A DNA stretch of 23,959 nt from a virus, in IMG/VR virus record IMGVR_UViG_3300013212_000029, positions 1 to 23,959 of that record. One strand, 5' to 3'. The notes beneath the pieces were generated by a model. It was not told the DNA's origin. It ran no database searches and worked only from the letters and a program-made list of their open reading frames with translations. Position 1 is the stretch's first letter, and each line of letters begins with the position of its first letter. Shown here piece by piece: positions 9,420 through 23,075 of the stretch. A program made the translations under genes and the position numbers.

Positions 9420-11143
9420 ACGAACTTGTCCTCGTCCTTGTTACCAAGCCAGTGTGGCTTATTTGCTTTAGCATTAGTGTGTGGACACTGTACTGGATAC
9501 TCACGCCACATAACACCATAGCGAAGGCTATCTAACGCGTGGTCGCTTTTAGTGCCAGGATCAAGGTCTTCAGGGTCTTTTGGGTTTGCCATAGCGCCTT
9601 TTAGTTCACGGATAAGATTAGGACATGCTCCACGTACTATGCGAAATCTTGGCATCATATTGCCTTCTTTCACACGACTTGCAACAAGCCATTCCTTTAA
9701 TCTACGCCAACCAGCCTTGCGGTCTTTTACAGCACGTACAGCTGGGAGTCCTCGCCTCCACCACACTTCTACTGGATATTCACCTACCCGCTGATCAACA
9801 TTCTCCGGAGGAAAAGTATTAGCGTAGTCAAAAGCAATTGCTTCTAATCGAGTTTGCCATAGTCCTTCTCGGAGGTTCTTTTTTATAGGAGTTGCCCACT
9901 GACGCTTTTCAAGTGCTTCTAAAACTTTCATTGCTTGATGTGAAGACACCAAACCGGCTTCGTAACATTCACCAATTACATAAACATCTTCATTCTCGTC
10001 GCTTGCATAGATAAGACTTGCGGCTGGAGCACCTGTACCAAAGTCATGACTTGCCCATATACGCCACCAAGGTGCTACGTCAACACTATCAACAACGTGC
10101 CATGGTTTGCCTTGTAAATCAACTTCTTTGAAATCAGGGAAGAACACTCCTCCAACTCCAACTTCGTGTTGGCATTCGCGAAGAAACGAAATGATGCCGT
10201 AGTCATCTATTTCACGTTGGCATACTTCAAGGTCTTTATGTGCCCATGTCGGTGTGCCGGCGGTAATTTTGTATCCAACACGTCCGTCTTCACGTTCCAC
10301 AGGCTCGTATTGCAAACCTTCGACTGCAGGAACAATAGGTGACTGTATGCGGTTTTGTAGCATATCTAGTTCACCGTTAAGTACCTGTGCCATGACGGAG
10401 TTGGCATGAATCTTATTCTGAACAAATACGATTGCACAGTCAGTACTCTTAGCAGGAAGGATAGTTTGCGTTATGGTTGCTATCTTCTTTTCAACCCGGT
10501 TAACAGAATCATCAAGCTCATCAATATCGTCCAAGATAATCATGTCAGGACGAAGGTGATCAAGTTTGACACCGCGAGCACCAGTGTCCAAACCGAATGC
10601 AAGAACGTTGAATCCGTTTGCTGTACGTAGTTTGGATGCGTTCCATCCTTTAGAAAAGCCATAGCGGTTTAAAGCCCTTTCAATACCGCACCTTTCCATT
10701 GTGTGAGCAATGTCAGATACGTGACGGTCAGCTGCTTCTTGCGTTGAACAAACGTACAAAAGAAATCTACGAGAACCTTTAACCGCAATACGAGCTGCAA
10801 TATGTTCCATTGTGGTGGACTTACCCCCTCCACGGAACCAGCACTCAATCAATGCAGGAGGTGGTGCACCGGCAGTTATACCTTCTGCCCAATCCCACGC
10901 GCGTATGTGATGCACACCTAACTCACTCGATGTAGCGTGAGGTGCGTATGTTCTAAGCCAATGTTTGTAATCCAATTGAGCTCCATCAATAGCAAACGCG
11001 CGACCGGAATCATAATCACCAGTCTCAATAACTTGGCCAATCTGTTCTTCTAAAGCTTCAAGTAAAGCAACTGACAATGGCTTATTGGAACTTGTCAGAT
11101 GTCTAAACTCTTTAGGAGTTGTTCGTTTGAGGTTGTTCGACAT
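9416..11143 (-). CDS. terL: Terminase large subunit (ATPase and nuclease)
   Basis: 575 residues. The ATPase has a Walker A-like loop WFRGGGKST at 102-110 (a GGGKS variant rather than GxxxxGKS), and Walker B MIILDDID at 201-208 with the catalytic acidic pair. The coupling region GLDTGARGVK lies near 184-193. The nuclease has WASHDFGTG near 363-370 (first metal-binding Asp 367) and a late acidic motif SDHALDSLRYG near 540-550. It cuts concatemers and drives DNA through the portal encoded next to it. The start lies 32 nt inside the preceding gene. The ATGA overlap leads into the small membrane protein. Confidence 0.92.
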   Translation of the reverse strand: MSNNLKRTTPKEFRHLTSSNKPLSVALLEALEEQIGQVIETGDYDSGRAFAIDGAQLDYKHWLRTYAPHATSSELGVHHIRAWDWAEGITAGAPPPALIECWFRGGGKSTTMEHIAARIAVKGSRRFLLYVCSTQEAADRHVSDIAHTMERCGIERALNRYGFSKGWNASKLRTANGFNVLAFGLDTGARGVKLDHLRPDMIILDDIDELDDSVNRVEKKIATITQTILPAKSTDCAIVFVQNKIHANSVMAQVLNGELDMLQNRIQSPIVPAVEGLQYEPVEREDGRVGYKITAGTPTWAHKDLEVCQREIDDYGIISFLRECQHEVGVGGVFFPDFKEVDLQGKPWHVVDSVDVAPWWRIWASHDFGTGAPAASLIYASDENEDVYVIGECYEAGLVSSHQAMKVLEALEKRQWATPIKKNLREGLWQTRLEAIAFDYANTFPPENVDQRVGEYPVEVWWRRGLPAVRAVKDRKAGWRRLKEWLVASRVKEGNMMPRFRIVRGACPNLIRELKGAMANPKDPEDLDPGTKSDHALDSLRYGVMWREYPVQCPHTNAKANKPHWLGNKDEDKFV

Positions 11144-18198: not shown

Positions 18199-18837
18199 TT
18201 ACTTGTTTAGGTAGTACTTTTCAAAGGACAACGCAGTAACTGGAATTACTTCTGTAAGAACATTCCAACAATCTGTTGCAATTTCCCGGTGTTCTTCTTG
18301 CGTGTGATCATCCATACGTACACGGCAGTAATGAAGCCAGTCACGCACTGTGCCTTTCATGTAAAGACGTGTCCCTACACAGAGTGGCAATACCATTCGT
18401 GCAGTTTCCAGTGCTACACCGCTTTCTACTAGTTCTTTGTACGCCCGAACAGAGTACAAGATAGACGCCAGTGCCTTATTATCCATATTAAGTTGGTTTT
18501 CAGGTTCTTCAAATGCAACGCTCCCTTGCCTGTTTGTAGGACCTTTTTTACGCATCTTAGGCAAATCCATTTCAATCTTCGATGGGTCTGCATAGCGCTG
18601 GCTAAACTCTTGGAATGTAAAGCTCCTGTGCCTAAGAATTTGAGCTGCAATAGCCCTTGATGTGTAGATTTCCATGACTACGTCAACCATTTGAAAGACA
18701 GACCAGTGTCCGCCTTTCATGCAGTAGTTAAGTAACCGCTCGTAATCAGGGTTGTCTTCAAAATCAGACGATACTCGAGCAAGATGAATCATAAATGCTT
18801 CAGCGTCTGGCTGAATAAACTTAAGGGTTGCTGCCAT
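18199..18837 (-). CDS. thyX: Flavin-dependent thymidylate synthase
   Basis: 212 residues. The ThyX signature RHRX7S is present as RHRSFTFQEFS (Arg69, His70, Arg71, Ser79), preceded by the substrate-binding region GGHWSVFQMVDVVMEI and followed by QRYADPS. The later LETARMVLPLCVGTRLYMKG matches the conserved 'R..LP.....' FAD/dUMP segment. The enzyme makes dTMP from dUMP using methylene-THF and FAD. The start overlaps the dUTPase stop (TAATG). dUTPase supplies its dUMP, so the two genes form a short dTTP pathway. Confidence 0.95.
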   Translation of the reverse strand: MAATLKFIQPDAEAFMIHLARVSSDFEDNPDYERLLNYCMKGGHWSVFQMVDVVMEIYTSRAIAAQILRHRSFTFQEFSQRYADPSKIEMDLPKMRKKGPTNRQGSVAFEEPENQLNMDNKALASILYSVRAYKELVESGVALETARMVLPLCVGTRLYMKGTVRDWLHYCRVRMDDHTQEEHREIATDCWNVLTEVIPVTALSFEKYYLNK

Positions 18838-20273: not shown

Positions 20274-20291
20274 GTTTTTTACTCCACCGCA

Positions 20292-20300
20292 AGTATATCA
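20292..20300 (-). promoter_or_regulatory. Extended -10 promoter of the DUF2829-like pair
   Basis: TGATATACT on the minus strand, 18 nt before the ATG at 20273, with ribosome site GGTGGAG between. The downstream string CTTGCGGT recurs near 22120, where CACCGCAAGTAT is repeated. Confidence 0.65.
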
Positions 20301-20424: not shown

Positions 20425-20496
20425 CACAGTACTAAAGAGGGAGAGGAGGAGTGCGCAAGAAAACACAGCAACGCCCGACTGGATAGGAGGGCGTAC

Positions 20497-20521
20497 TGCA
20501 CCTAGCTTTAGCGAAGGTGCA
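20497..20521 (+). repeat. Hairpin repeat copy 1 (AGCTTTAGCGAA loop)
   Basis: Stem TGCACC/GGTGCA, 6 bp (7 if the next T-A closes), around a 13-nt loop TAGCTTTAGCGAA. All seven copies read in the same direction on the plus strand. Confidence 0.85.
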
Positions 20522-20573
20522 CGGTCGGATGGTGAGAAGGAAGGGTGGCACAGCCTGACGTACACACCACAAC

Positions 20574-20598
20574 TACATCAAGCTTTAGCGAAGATGTA
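20574..20598 (+). repeat. Hairpin repeat copy 2 (AGCTTTAGCGAA loop)
   Basis: Stem TACATC/GATGTA, 6 bp, around a 13-nt loop AAGCTTTAGCGAA. The stem differs from copy 1 at several positions on both arms, so pairing is kept while sequence is not. Confidence 0.85.
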
Positions 20599-20670
20599 TA
20601 AGACGCTGCATATATTAGCCACACTAACATACACACCACAACAATGTGTCACGAACTCAGCAATGAATAG

Positions 20671-20686
20671 TCTCGCTTTAGCGAGA
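20671..20686 (+). repeat. Hairpin repeat copy 3, compact variant
   Basis: TCTCGC TTTA GCGAGA: a perfect 6-bp stem closed directly on the GC-TTTA-GC core, without the extra loop bases of the long copies. Confidence 0.7.
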
Positions 20687-20694
20687 TCGAACTA

Positions 20695-20720
20695 CCGGCG
20701 CGAATGCGCCGGAAATTTTT
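20695..20720 (+). repeat. GC-rich hairpin followed by AAATTTTT
   Basis: CCGGCGC GAAT GCGCCGG forms a 7-bp stem, followed by AAATTTTT, so it resembles an intrinsic terminator on the plus strand. A related hairpin followed by AAAAATTTTT lies at 22024-22048. Confidence 0.6.
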
Positions 20721-20768
20721 GCGTATGATTGTGCAAGTGATTCGTAGGATAATACGTGCGGGGTAAGA

Positions 20769-20774
20769 TACAAT
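20769..20774 (+). promoter_or_regulatory. -10 box of the lipoprotein cassette
   Basis: TACAAT on the plus strand, about 55 nt before the ATG at 20830. The putative leader has a hairpin CGAAG/CTTCG at 20784-20806 and an AAGGGG ribosome site. A second candidate box, GATAAT at 20748, lies inside the inverted 14-mer. Confidence 0.4.
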
Positions 20775-20829
20775 ACATACGTGCGAAGCTGCTCTGCTGC
20801 TCTTCGACACACACAAGGGGTTTACCTAG

Positions 20830-21156
20830 ATGATCTTACAGCGTCGAACATTACAATATGTTCCTTTATCGGCTATTGCATCCGTCATAGCCGAACATGC
20901 AGGGTTGGAATTTGATAGTGATATGTTATTTCGTTTGATCAGTAGTGAGTTTGACAATCCGGACAATAACGACGGGGTTGTGACTTGCGTTCGCGCAGTG
21001 CTTGATGCATTGTGCAATCTACCGGCGGATGGTCTGGGATACGATCTGGATCTGACTGATGACGAGTGCGAACATCTTAGCTGCACGTTCCATGTGGTCA
21101 ACGAAGTTTTCCCTGACGATTACACGGCCTGTATAGTCTGTGAAAGTGGTGAATAG
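20830..21156 (+). CDS. Acidic Cys-containing protein of unknown function
   Basis: 108 residues, acidic, with helical content (LSAIASVIAEHAGLEFDSDM) and a Cys-rich second half (VTCVRAVLDALCNLP, ECEHLSCTF, CIVCESGE). The last of these could bind a metal through C-x2-C. No signal or membrane segment is present. It is the first gene of a rightward three-gene cassette and is followed at once by a tiny lipoprotein. I do not recognise the family. Its base composition is richer in G than the left half of the window. Confidence 0.6.
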   Translation: MILQRRTLQYVPLSAIASVIAEHAGLEFDSDMLFRLISSEFDNPDNNDGVVTCVRAVLDALCNLPADGLGYDLDLTDDECEHLSCTFHVVNEVFPDDYTACIVCESGE

Positions 21157-21157
21157 A

Positions 21158-21268
21158 ATGCAAGTTTGCAAGTTTGTTGCAGTTGTTGCAGTCGCGCTCT
21201 GTCTTATGGCAGGGTGCGGTTGCACGGATGGCAGGATTGAGAATGCTACCGAGGGGGTTTCACACTGA
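21158..21268 (+). CDS. 36-aa lipoprotein
   Basis: ATG at 21158 opens a 36-residue frame. MQVCKFVAVVAVALCLMAGC is a textbook lipoprotein signal peptide: Lys at position 5, a hydrophobic core, and the lipobox LMAGC with Cys20 as the lipid-bearing residue. A mature tail of 17 residues (CGCTDGRIENATEGVSH) remains. The stop overlaps the next ATG (TGATG), and the gene starts directly after the previous stop. Small phage lipoproteins act as o-spanins or in superinfection exclusion; either is inference here. Confidence 0.75.
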   Translation: MQVCKFVAVVAVALCLMAGCGCTDGRIENATEGVSH

Positions 21269-21498
21269 TGGAAGATAAATCGTTGTCGTTTGATGCGTTC
21301 CGGGCACACGTTGACCGATACATTTCTCGGCGGATCGGGGTTTCACTGGAAGATTTGGCTGACGTGGATATCTGGGATTGGTACACGGAGGAATCCGCCC
21401 CTGTGTCGTGGTGGAAGATACAGATAAAGGAGGCGGCACAGTTTGTAATGGAGTCGCAGGATTGTGTAGATTCTGATTTGCTTAGTTTGTTCGATTAG
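21268..21498 (+). CDS. DUF5419-like small protein
   Basis: 76 residues, acidic and Trp-rich. FDAFRAHVDRYISRRIGVSL followed by DLADVDIWDWY and a terminal helix (KEAAQFVMES) resembles the short actinophage DUF5419 pattern ('f...v...i..r.G.s..Dl.D....d.y..g..p..a'). Function of that family is unknown. It is translationally coupled to the lipoprotein and ends just before a strong terminator. The family match is by eye and moderate. Confidence 0.6.
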   Translation: MEDKSLSFDAFRAHVDRYISRRIGVSLEDLADVDIWDWYTEESAPVSWWKIQIKEAAQFVMESQDCVDSDLLSLFD

Positions 21499-21508
21499 AA
21501 TCCAGCCG

Positions 21509-21549
21509 GGGACCCTGTCAGCATTCTGGCGGGGTTCCTTTTATTTTTA
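21509..21549 (+). terminator. Terminator of the lipoprotein cassette
   Basis: GGGACCCTGTCAG / CTGGCGGGGTTCC pairs over 13 positions (three G-T wobbles) with a 4-nt loop CATT, followed by TTTTATTTTT on the plus strand. Confidence 0.88.
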
Positions 21550-21558
21550 TAATCCTGC

Positions 21559-21591
21559 AAAAGTTTTGGACGCTTTAGCGTACATACTTTT
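21559..21591 (+). repeat. Hairpin repeat copy 4, two-tier variant
   Basis: Core ACGC TTTA GCGT (4 bp), flanked by an outer 6-bp stem AAAAGT / ACTTTT with asymmetric internal loops. Confidence 0.6.
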
Positions 21592-21705
21592 AAGGGATTA
21601 GTCAGTGCGCACAGTAACTGTACTGATGTGATTATGTATTACATTCGCACTGATACAAACCACCTACTCATAACACTGTCTCTATCCTTTTATACATCTC
21701 AGGTT

Positions 21706-21730
21706 TACGTCGAGCTTTAGCGAAGGCGTA
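21706..21730 (+). repeat. Hairpin repeat copy 5 (AGCTTTAGCGAA loop)
   Basis: Stem TACGTC/GGCGTA, 6 bp with one T-G wobble, around a 13-nt loop GAGCTTTAGCGAA. Confidence 0.85.
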
Positions 21731-21854
21731 CCCTTCACTGACGTAACGCTTGCAGTAGTACAGCTCCTACCTTTCTGTGTCTCGAGGGAGTATACACGCA
21801 CCACGCAGGTACGTTACACACAAAAAAGGAAAAAGAAAACAGTATGAATTGGTC

Positions 21855-21879
21855 TACACCAAGCTTTAGCGAAGGTGTA
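21855..21879 (+). repeat. Hairpin repeat copy 6 (AGCTTTAGCGAA loop)
   Basis: Stem TACACC/GGTGTA, 6 bp, around a 13-nt loop AAGCTTTAGCGAA. Confidence 0.87.
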
Positions 21880-21933
21880 TCTACATAAATAGTACCTGCA
21901 TAGATAGGGTGAGTGATCGTACCTTACTCTCCT

Positions 21934-21956
21934 ACACTGAGCTTTAGCGAAGGTGT
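21934..21956 (+). repeat. Hairpin repeat copy 7 (AGCTTTAGCGAA loop)
   Basis: Stem ACACT/GGTGT, 5 bp with a T-G closing wobble, around a 13-nt loop GAGCTTTAGCGAA. Confidence 0.85.
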
Positions 21957-22278
21957 TTAAAACAAACGGTTACACAATTAGGTCACGATCGAGTAGATTG
22001 CCAGGTGAGAACAGACAATGGTCGGTGCGCGCAGCGCCAAAAATTTTTATCAAAAATGGGCTTGCATTATCCTACGAATTTATTGCATCTTGCTGCAGCT
22101 CTTAGCGTTGCCTGCTGCCGCACCGCAAGTATGACATAGTTATAATTGGCGGTGAATTGTGATATTTGTTATAACGATTTGGGTGTATTTGCATAATATT
22201 CCACACTTTGCATAATCATACGATTCGTGTTGTTTGTAGTAGCTCGGAGGGTTTATAGACTGGATTGTACCTGCGGTA

Positions 22279-22287
22279 TGGTATAAT
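22279..22287 (+). promoter_or_regulatory. Consensus extended -10 box, leaderless type
   Basis: TGGTATAAT is a perfect extended -10 box. Only five bases (TAGAC) separate it from the ATG at 22293, and there is no ribosome site, so the mRNA probably begins at or next to the start codon. No good -35 element is visible. Confidence 0.7.
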
Positions 22288-22292
22288 TAGAC

Positions 22293-23075
22293 ATGATTCA
22301 CATAGAACACGGGGCGGCTGCCGAATCAGCTCGCGCGGCGTTGATAGCGTCAACGGTCAAGATAACCGTCATTAGTGGTAATGACAAAGTTGGTAAAGTT
22401 GCAACAACACAAGTATCCCAACTTACCTGTGACAAGCTGGGTACACCGTGCCCGTTTCGGCATGCTGGTTGCTATGGTGAGGGTGGGCGGGTTGCTATGA
22501 CTAGCAGAATGTTAGAGTTAGCATCTAACGCGCTTGGAACGTCTGTGTCCTTGATGGATATTGCAACGGCTGAGGCTGCTGGTATTGACACCTTACGAGG
22601 TAATCGGCCGCTACGGTTGCACATTGTTGGTGATAGTCCAACCGATTCAACGGCTACGATTGTCAGTCTGGCCTCTGAACGTTATATGTCACGGGGCGGG
22701 TTTCCGGTTTGGACATATACGCATGGATGGAGAGAAGTAGCTCGTACATCGTGGGGTGGTGTTTCGGTCTTGGCATCGTGTGAAACCATACAGGACCTTG
22801 ATGCGGCTCATGCTAAAGGATACGCGTTGTCTATGGTGGTTGACGTGCACGGGGACAAAGTCAAGCCGTATCGGTTAGGTAATGGCATGTTGGCCATCCC
22901 TTGTCGTGAACAAGTTGGCTCAGCTGAGAATTGCACATCGTGCCGGTTGTGCTTTGACGGTGAAAAACTGCGGCGTTCTAACGCTGTGATTTTGTTTGCC
23001 GTGCACGGTCAACAAAGTCGTAAAGCTAAGGCGGCGATCGCGCGGAAACAGTTTATTGATTTGGATTCCGTTTGA
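22293..23075 (+). CDS. Cys-rich Gp88-like phage protein, possible Fe-S protein
   Basis: 260 residues. A first Cys group (Cys46, Cys53, Cys60 in CPFRHAGCYGEGG) and a second (Cys204, then Cys214, Cys217, Cys220 in NCTSCRLC) could hold a metal or Fe-S cluster. Between them, regularly spaced beta strands (LRLHIVGDS, FPVWTYTHGW, VSVLASCE, ALSMVVDVHG) suggest a TIM-barrel-like fold, as in the phage Gp88 and Gp37/Gp68 groups that resemble radical-SAM proteins. The canonical CxxxCxxC is absent. The family call is tentative and function is unknown. It is preceded by a leaderless promoter and coupled to a membrane microprotein. Confidence 0.6.
   Translation: MIHIEHGAAAESARAALIASTVKITVISGNDKVGKVATTQVSQLTCDKLGTPCPFRHAGCYGEGGRVAMTSRMLELASNALGTSVSLMDIATAEAAGIDTLRGNRPLRLHIVGDSPTDSTATIVSLASERYMSRGGFPVWTYTHGWREVARTSWGGVSVLASCETIQDLDAAHAKGYALSMVVDVHGDKVKPYRLGNGMLAIPCREQVGSAENCTSCRLCFDGEKLRRSNAVILFAVHGQQSRKAKAAIARKQFIDLDSV

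Follow-up and report, generated by a model that had tools for sequence, protein, structure and literature searches.

Two intergenic regions of a tailed phage carry a family of small plus-strand hairpins in which the stems change while the loop stays constant, and for this reason the comparison of copies shows selection acting on the folded strand and its loop, not on the DNA sequence. The conserved folded strand is most likely RNA. Our best explanation, to which we give an even chance, is that the regions hold two similar structured-RNA modules, each repeating one binding hairpin for a putative partner. In this phage control region it is clearly a strand's fold, rather than its DNA sequence, that has been conserved. 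None of the described families that we tested covers the hairpin arrays.

The hairpins and their two regions

The window, that is the whole stretch of DNA analysed, is a 23,959-base IMG/VR fragment from environmental DNA, whose ORFs match a major head protein, portal, terminase, thymidylate synthase, dUTPase, SSB and methyltransferase. The earlier note had described five same-strand hairpins with one loop between 20497 and 21956, and this was borne out: the window contains just five perfect matches to AGCTTTAGCGAA (20504, 20581, 21713, 21862 and 21940), always on the plus strand, and nine window sites lie within two mismatches of it against 1.7 expected, a number reached in none of 100 shuffles. 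All five share the loop N-AGC-TTTA-GC-GAA on stems of 5–6 bp, which, as also claimed, differ from each other and stay paired, two of them with one T.G each.

Region A is the gap separating a leftward gene (start 20273) from a rightward gene (start 20830). It holds hairpins A1 (20497–20521, plus strand; TGCACC-T-AGC-TTTA-GC-GAA-GGTGCA) and, 77 nt further on, A2 (20574–20598, plus; stem TACATC/GATGTA). Region B extends from a strong terminator to the start of the DUF7227 gene (22293–23075, plus) and holds B1 (21706–21730, plus; TACGTC/GGCGTA, with one T.G), B2 (21855–21879, plus; TACACC/GGTGTA) and, 78 nt past B2, B3 (21934–21956, plus; ACACT/GGTGT, with T.G as the closing pair). The terminator (21508–21549, plus) is the intrinsic one of the upstream gene, parts that gene from array B and is kept in L006, L007 and L008. 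Between the arrays sit a 108-aa gene (20830–21156, plus), to which no family was assigned, and a 76-aa gene (21268–21498, plus) of phrog_519, function unknown. A TATAAT-like box comes after each array, so that the five copies lie outside gene leaders. The TATAAT at about 22279–22293 ends a few bases 5' of the DUF7227 ATG and is kept in relatives; the DUF7227 transcript is probably leaderless. On the left, array A is adjoined by small Tad2-like genes (Thoeris anti-defence 2-like, PF11195; 19670–20273 in the window, where the matches fall below the Pfam cut-off, and 2966–3202 in L007, where the match exceeds it), one of which carries an HTH fusion.

The 13-nt loop of the earlier note stands as a sequence but not as an undivided loop. 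Since some family copies read AGC-TTTAT-GC-GAA, the cap is better drawn as an N-A / G-A-A 2x3 internal loop, two invariant G-C pairs and an apical loop of TTTA or TTTAT. The arrays are non-coding, because the hairpins lie in differing frames and some loops carry a 1-nt insertion, which rules out a shared protein-coding reading. An exact GCTTTAGC at 9465 is isolated inside the terminase ORF and forms no hairpin of the family type. A complementary target for the loop was sought on the minus strand of the window, and no site was found at up to two mismatches.

Covariation and conservation among relatives

IMG/VR scans yielded six close-relative contigs (3300007973_000071, 3300046820_001024, 3300016474_000518, 3300013126_000405, 3300042519_001196 and 3300008113_000089) which add 24 copies, giving 29 in seven contigs. 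In the relatives, too, every copy lies in region A, between divergent genes, or in region B, upstream of the DUF7227 gene. The stem consensus of the 29 copies is TRCRYC/GRYGYA. In measures that are inflated by the relatedness of the copies, 99.4% of the pair cells pair and 18 cells show compensatory double changes, neither value being reached in any of 500 shuffles, while sliding the partner column by 1–3 positions as a control lowers pairing to 13–48%. Counting instead how many pairs show a double change gives a value not above the shuffles (202/500), because double-sided variation is limited to three of the six stem pairs.

Compensation is also seen between orthologues. Among the six relatives A1 reads TGCGCC/GGCGCA or TGCACC/GGTGCA; at A2, TACATC/GATGTA is replaced by TGCATC/GATGCA or TACACC/GGTGTA; and B3 has orthologues with TATGCC/GGCGTA. 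The same covariation pattern in paralogues and orthologues would be hard to explain otherwise. Homologues in relatives and covariation above chance had been set beforehand as the test of whether structure and loop are selected on the plus strand, and both were found. Between orthologous copies in A or B, identity is about 98–99% in the loop, 83–87% in the stems and 69–76% in the spacer. Copy number differs by one among relatives, with a tandem extra copy in region B, at the position of B1, in three of four contigs. The paired hairpins are 76–82 nt apart in A and 77–78 nt apart in B, and in both a GC-rich hairpin then follows; the sequences between the hairpins of A and of B are too diverged for common descent to be claimed.

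A covariance search indicates that the family is restricted to this small clade. Other relatives by head protein, thymidylate synthase or DUF7227 gave nothing convincing, and a bacterial and archaeal genome collection gave four chance-like matches only (L233–L236, bacterial genomes with poor or partial stems). Weak covariance matches in L199, L221, L222, L223 and L227 represent one identical sequence, within the ssb gene in L199, and are likewise taken as chance; in most single pattern-scan matches the stem is not formed. In a farther relative, L190 (head protein 93% and thymidylate synthase 79% identical), the matching non-coding stretches carry the caps GAGC-GAA-GCGA, GAGC-GTA-GCGA and GAGC-GTAT-GCGA on unrelated stems. 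Over all loci compared, a stem of 5 bp or more frames 8 of the 24 distinct sites of GAGCGNAGCGA but just 1 of the 16 sites of its reversed control. The window family thus probably belongs, as one variant, to a broader class of GA/GC-capped hairpins, to which homology is inferred. In 13 Pseudomonadota genomes GAGCGNAGCGA is about 2.4 times commoner than its reversed control (about 300 vs 123), and it is possibly a widespread stable hairpin cap.

Neighbouring elements and the folded molecule

Directly 5' of A1 lies a hairpin (20471–20494, plus; ACGCCC-(GACTGGATAGGA)-GGGCGT) with compensatory changes in relatives, which is broken in L008. The earlier note had added two hairpins with a GC-TTTA-GC core to the family. 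The one at 20671–20686 (plus; TCTCGC-TTTA-GCGAGA) is a related tetraloop hairpin without the GAA side, and in the relatives of the phage it is conserved, keeping TTTA on an altered stem (CCTGC/GCAGG in L008). The one at the base of region B (21570–21581, plus; ACGC-TTTA-GCGT) is a different element, because its loop is exchanged between relatives (TTTA, GCCA or GAA). Further into region B a long-loop hairpin (21602–21653, plus; TCAGTGCG...CGCACTGA) shows a compensatory change from C-G to U-A in L008. A helix enclosing B2 may be formed by the invariant GCAGGTA (21805–21811) and TACCTGC (21893–21899) on the plus strand; this pairing (21805–21899) is only a candidate, because TACCTGC is also an instance of the motif TACYTGC. 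That motif has 19 sites in the window against 7.4 expected (e.g. 20289–20295, 21893–21899 and 22268–22274), adjoins TATAAT-like boxes in several intergenic regions and is perhaps an operator or promoter part.

Both arrays close with a conserved GC-rich hairpin and a T run on the plus strand. For array A this terminator-like border is CCGGCGC-GAAT-GCGCCGG followed by AAATTTTT (20695–20720, plus), with GAAT or GCCA as loop among relatives, and for array B a GC-rich hairpin followed by AAAAATTTTT (22024–22048, plus). The T runs begin 3–5 nt past the stem, which is not the standard terminator form. Beyond the borders lies a 16-nt repeat, CGTAGGATAATGCAAG, with two copies after array A (20722–20758, plus; three mismatches each) and an exact, inverted copy after array B (22061–22076, minus). 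At up to three mismatches the window has five matches, including 22207–22222, against 0.17 expected, and in the window and four relatives the repeat follows at least one array, on the plus strand after A and on the minus strand after B.

As for the strand, five imperfect stem cells are T.G when read on the plus strand and none is A.C, the sole other being a T-T at one stem end. This bias is suggestive of the plus strand and not proof, because the T.G cells reflect about three independent events. The T.G-containing copies fold with -7.8 and -5.9 kcal/mol as plus-strand RNA, compared with -1.5 and -2.4 kcal/mol as minus-strand RNA and -1.8 (in another fold) and -1.2 kcal/mol as DNA. We put RNA ahead of DNA, as roughly twice as likely, because of this wobble use and these folding energies. 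The hairpins share the orientation of the downstream genes, and other nearby helices, at 20471–20494 and in TCAGTGCG/CGCACTGA, covary too. Neither array is preceded by a convincing sigma-70 promoter, the window region having two promoter-like sites against 3.9 expected.

Our preferred explanation would have the arrays transcribed as similarly built structured-RNA segments read from the plus strand, each with two to four copies of the one small hairpin. What is recognised would be the cap, with its A.G (and N.A) mismatches and an unpaired A opposite, two G-C pairs and the UUUA(U) loop, and the outer stem might serve as a handle only. One RNA-binding protein of phage or host may bind the repeated caps, a partner RNA being less likely; among the ORFs scanned no RNA-binding protein was recognised. 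Such an array might exert its regulatory effect by serving as a multivalent platform or sponge, flanking the small operon 20830–21498 and preceding the DUF7227 gene. More tentatively, and with rather less confidence than in the general explanation, we suggest a previously undescribed two-copy phage non-coding RNA with five or six protein-binding hairpins in all, acting beside the anti-defence-like (Tad2-like) genes as a multivalent decoy or scaffold for an RNA-binding protein of phage or host. Should the hairpins have a binding partner, their loop offers a ready bait for it.

Alternatively, the hairpins might form in single-stranded DNA near a replication origin, the plus strand being exposed as lagging-strand template of a rightward fork and recognised by a primase, an initiator or an SSB-sensitive factor, in the manner of G4-type or ssi priming signals. 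We regard this as unlikely, though it is the strongest of the competitors. Region A is the point at which gene direction diverges and, in two relatives, a local minimum of cumulative GC skew, but the skew tracks gene direction and is not necessarily the sign of an origin. The 16-nt repeats flank the arrays in opposite orientations, and adjacent hairpins carry GNA/GNNA loops on two G-C pairs, which are extraordinarily stable in DNA (PMC4686876). L190 moreover has a minus-strand GNA hairpin near 18456 among plus-strand genes, which does not follow transcription. Against this stand the T.G-containing copies, which are unstable as DNA, and the position of an HTH protein gene followed by a DnaB helicase gene about 8 kb away in one relative. 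Origins often lie within initiator genes, e.g. lambda O.

Less probable still, and improbable on the whole, are untranslated mRNA hairpins with a general role in transcript stabilisation or processing or in gene insulation, in which the cap would be a stable fold with no specific ligand. GA/GNA caps are indeed used in relatives, in two cases followed by a T run as in terminators, and the excess of the bare cap motif in the Pseudomonadota sample points in the same direction; however, none of the five copies in the window has a T run, all lie outside gene leaders, and their loop is far stricter than stability alone demands. A mobile or expanding palindromic repeat, which the earlier note had offered as another possibility and which the region B tandem copy and the varying copy number would suit, is already disfavoured and very improbable as the main reading, because all copies lie in two syntenic places, their number differs by one and none occurs elsewhere in a 54.6-kb relative.

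Comparison with known elements

An Rfam search at the gathering cut-off and at E<=5 matched no family to the region. Intrinsic (rho-independent) terminators have a T run immediately behind the stem; the sequences behind the five hairpins are CGGTC, TAAGA, CCCTT, TCTAC and TTAAA, and none of the five was called as a terminator. REP/BIME elements originate from a RAYT (Y1 transposase) and carry GTAG/GGAG as a foot tetranucleotide; here the 5' flanks are AC, AC, TT, TC and CC, without a REP-type GTAG foot, and no RAYT-type (Y1) transposase was found among the ORFs scanned.

The SAS/ESAS elements of cluster K mycobacteriophages (start-associated sequences with extended inverted repeats), in which the 13-bp repeat GGGATAGGAGCCC sits at start codons and is accompanied by 17-bp inverted repeats, resemble the present family in being repeated, mostly same-orientation inverted-repeat elements of phage non-coding DNA, kept in position among relatives and of unknown function (PMC3203893). 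However, ESAS conserve the arms and vary the spacer (PMC3203893), whereas the window copies vary the arms under a fixed loop and are not beside start codons, so that membership was rejected. The PeSLs (promoter-early stem-loops) of T4-like phages (Arbiol 2010 and Comeau 2014, cited in PMC4503421) are likewise repeated intergenic stem-loops; they are described as early promoters coupled to a terminator stem-loop that move about from gene to gene, whereas the window hairpins have no T runs and are fixed in two places. GOLLD and ROOL, ornate large phage RNAs (PMC12286853), are also structured non-coding RNAs in phage-related sequence, but the window modules are simple hairpin strings. By analogy, the arrays may work like a multivalent hairpin array, and we claim no membership of a named family.

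GNA/GNNA DNA mini-hairpins such as d(GCGAAGC) are exceptionally stable and likewise have two G-C pairs beneath a tiny loop (PMC4686876). The caps GC-GAA-GC and GC-GTA-GC of L190 are exact cases, whereas the window family has TTTA/TTTAT loops and an asymmetric mismatch block under the G-C pairs. More broadly, the hairpin arrays hint at an unnamed and more widely used building block of phage intergenic regions, namely small GA/GC-capped hairpins whose tiny loops can be exchanged.

The small hairpins, together with a giant ORF, led us to consider promoters of the N4 type. Promoters of the N4 virion RNA polymerase have a 3-nt hairpin loop and depend on an encoded giant vRNAP; the loop here is not 3 nt, and the giant ORF matches a methylase and a kinase and no polymerase, though a very diverged polymerase within it is conceivable. 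This single ORF of 4431 aa occupies 32855–46150 of the relative contig 3300008113_000089 (L336–L338) and carries in its C-terminal half a C5-cytosine methylase and a polynucleotide-kinase-like AAA_33 domain, as in a giant polyvalent protein.
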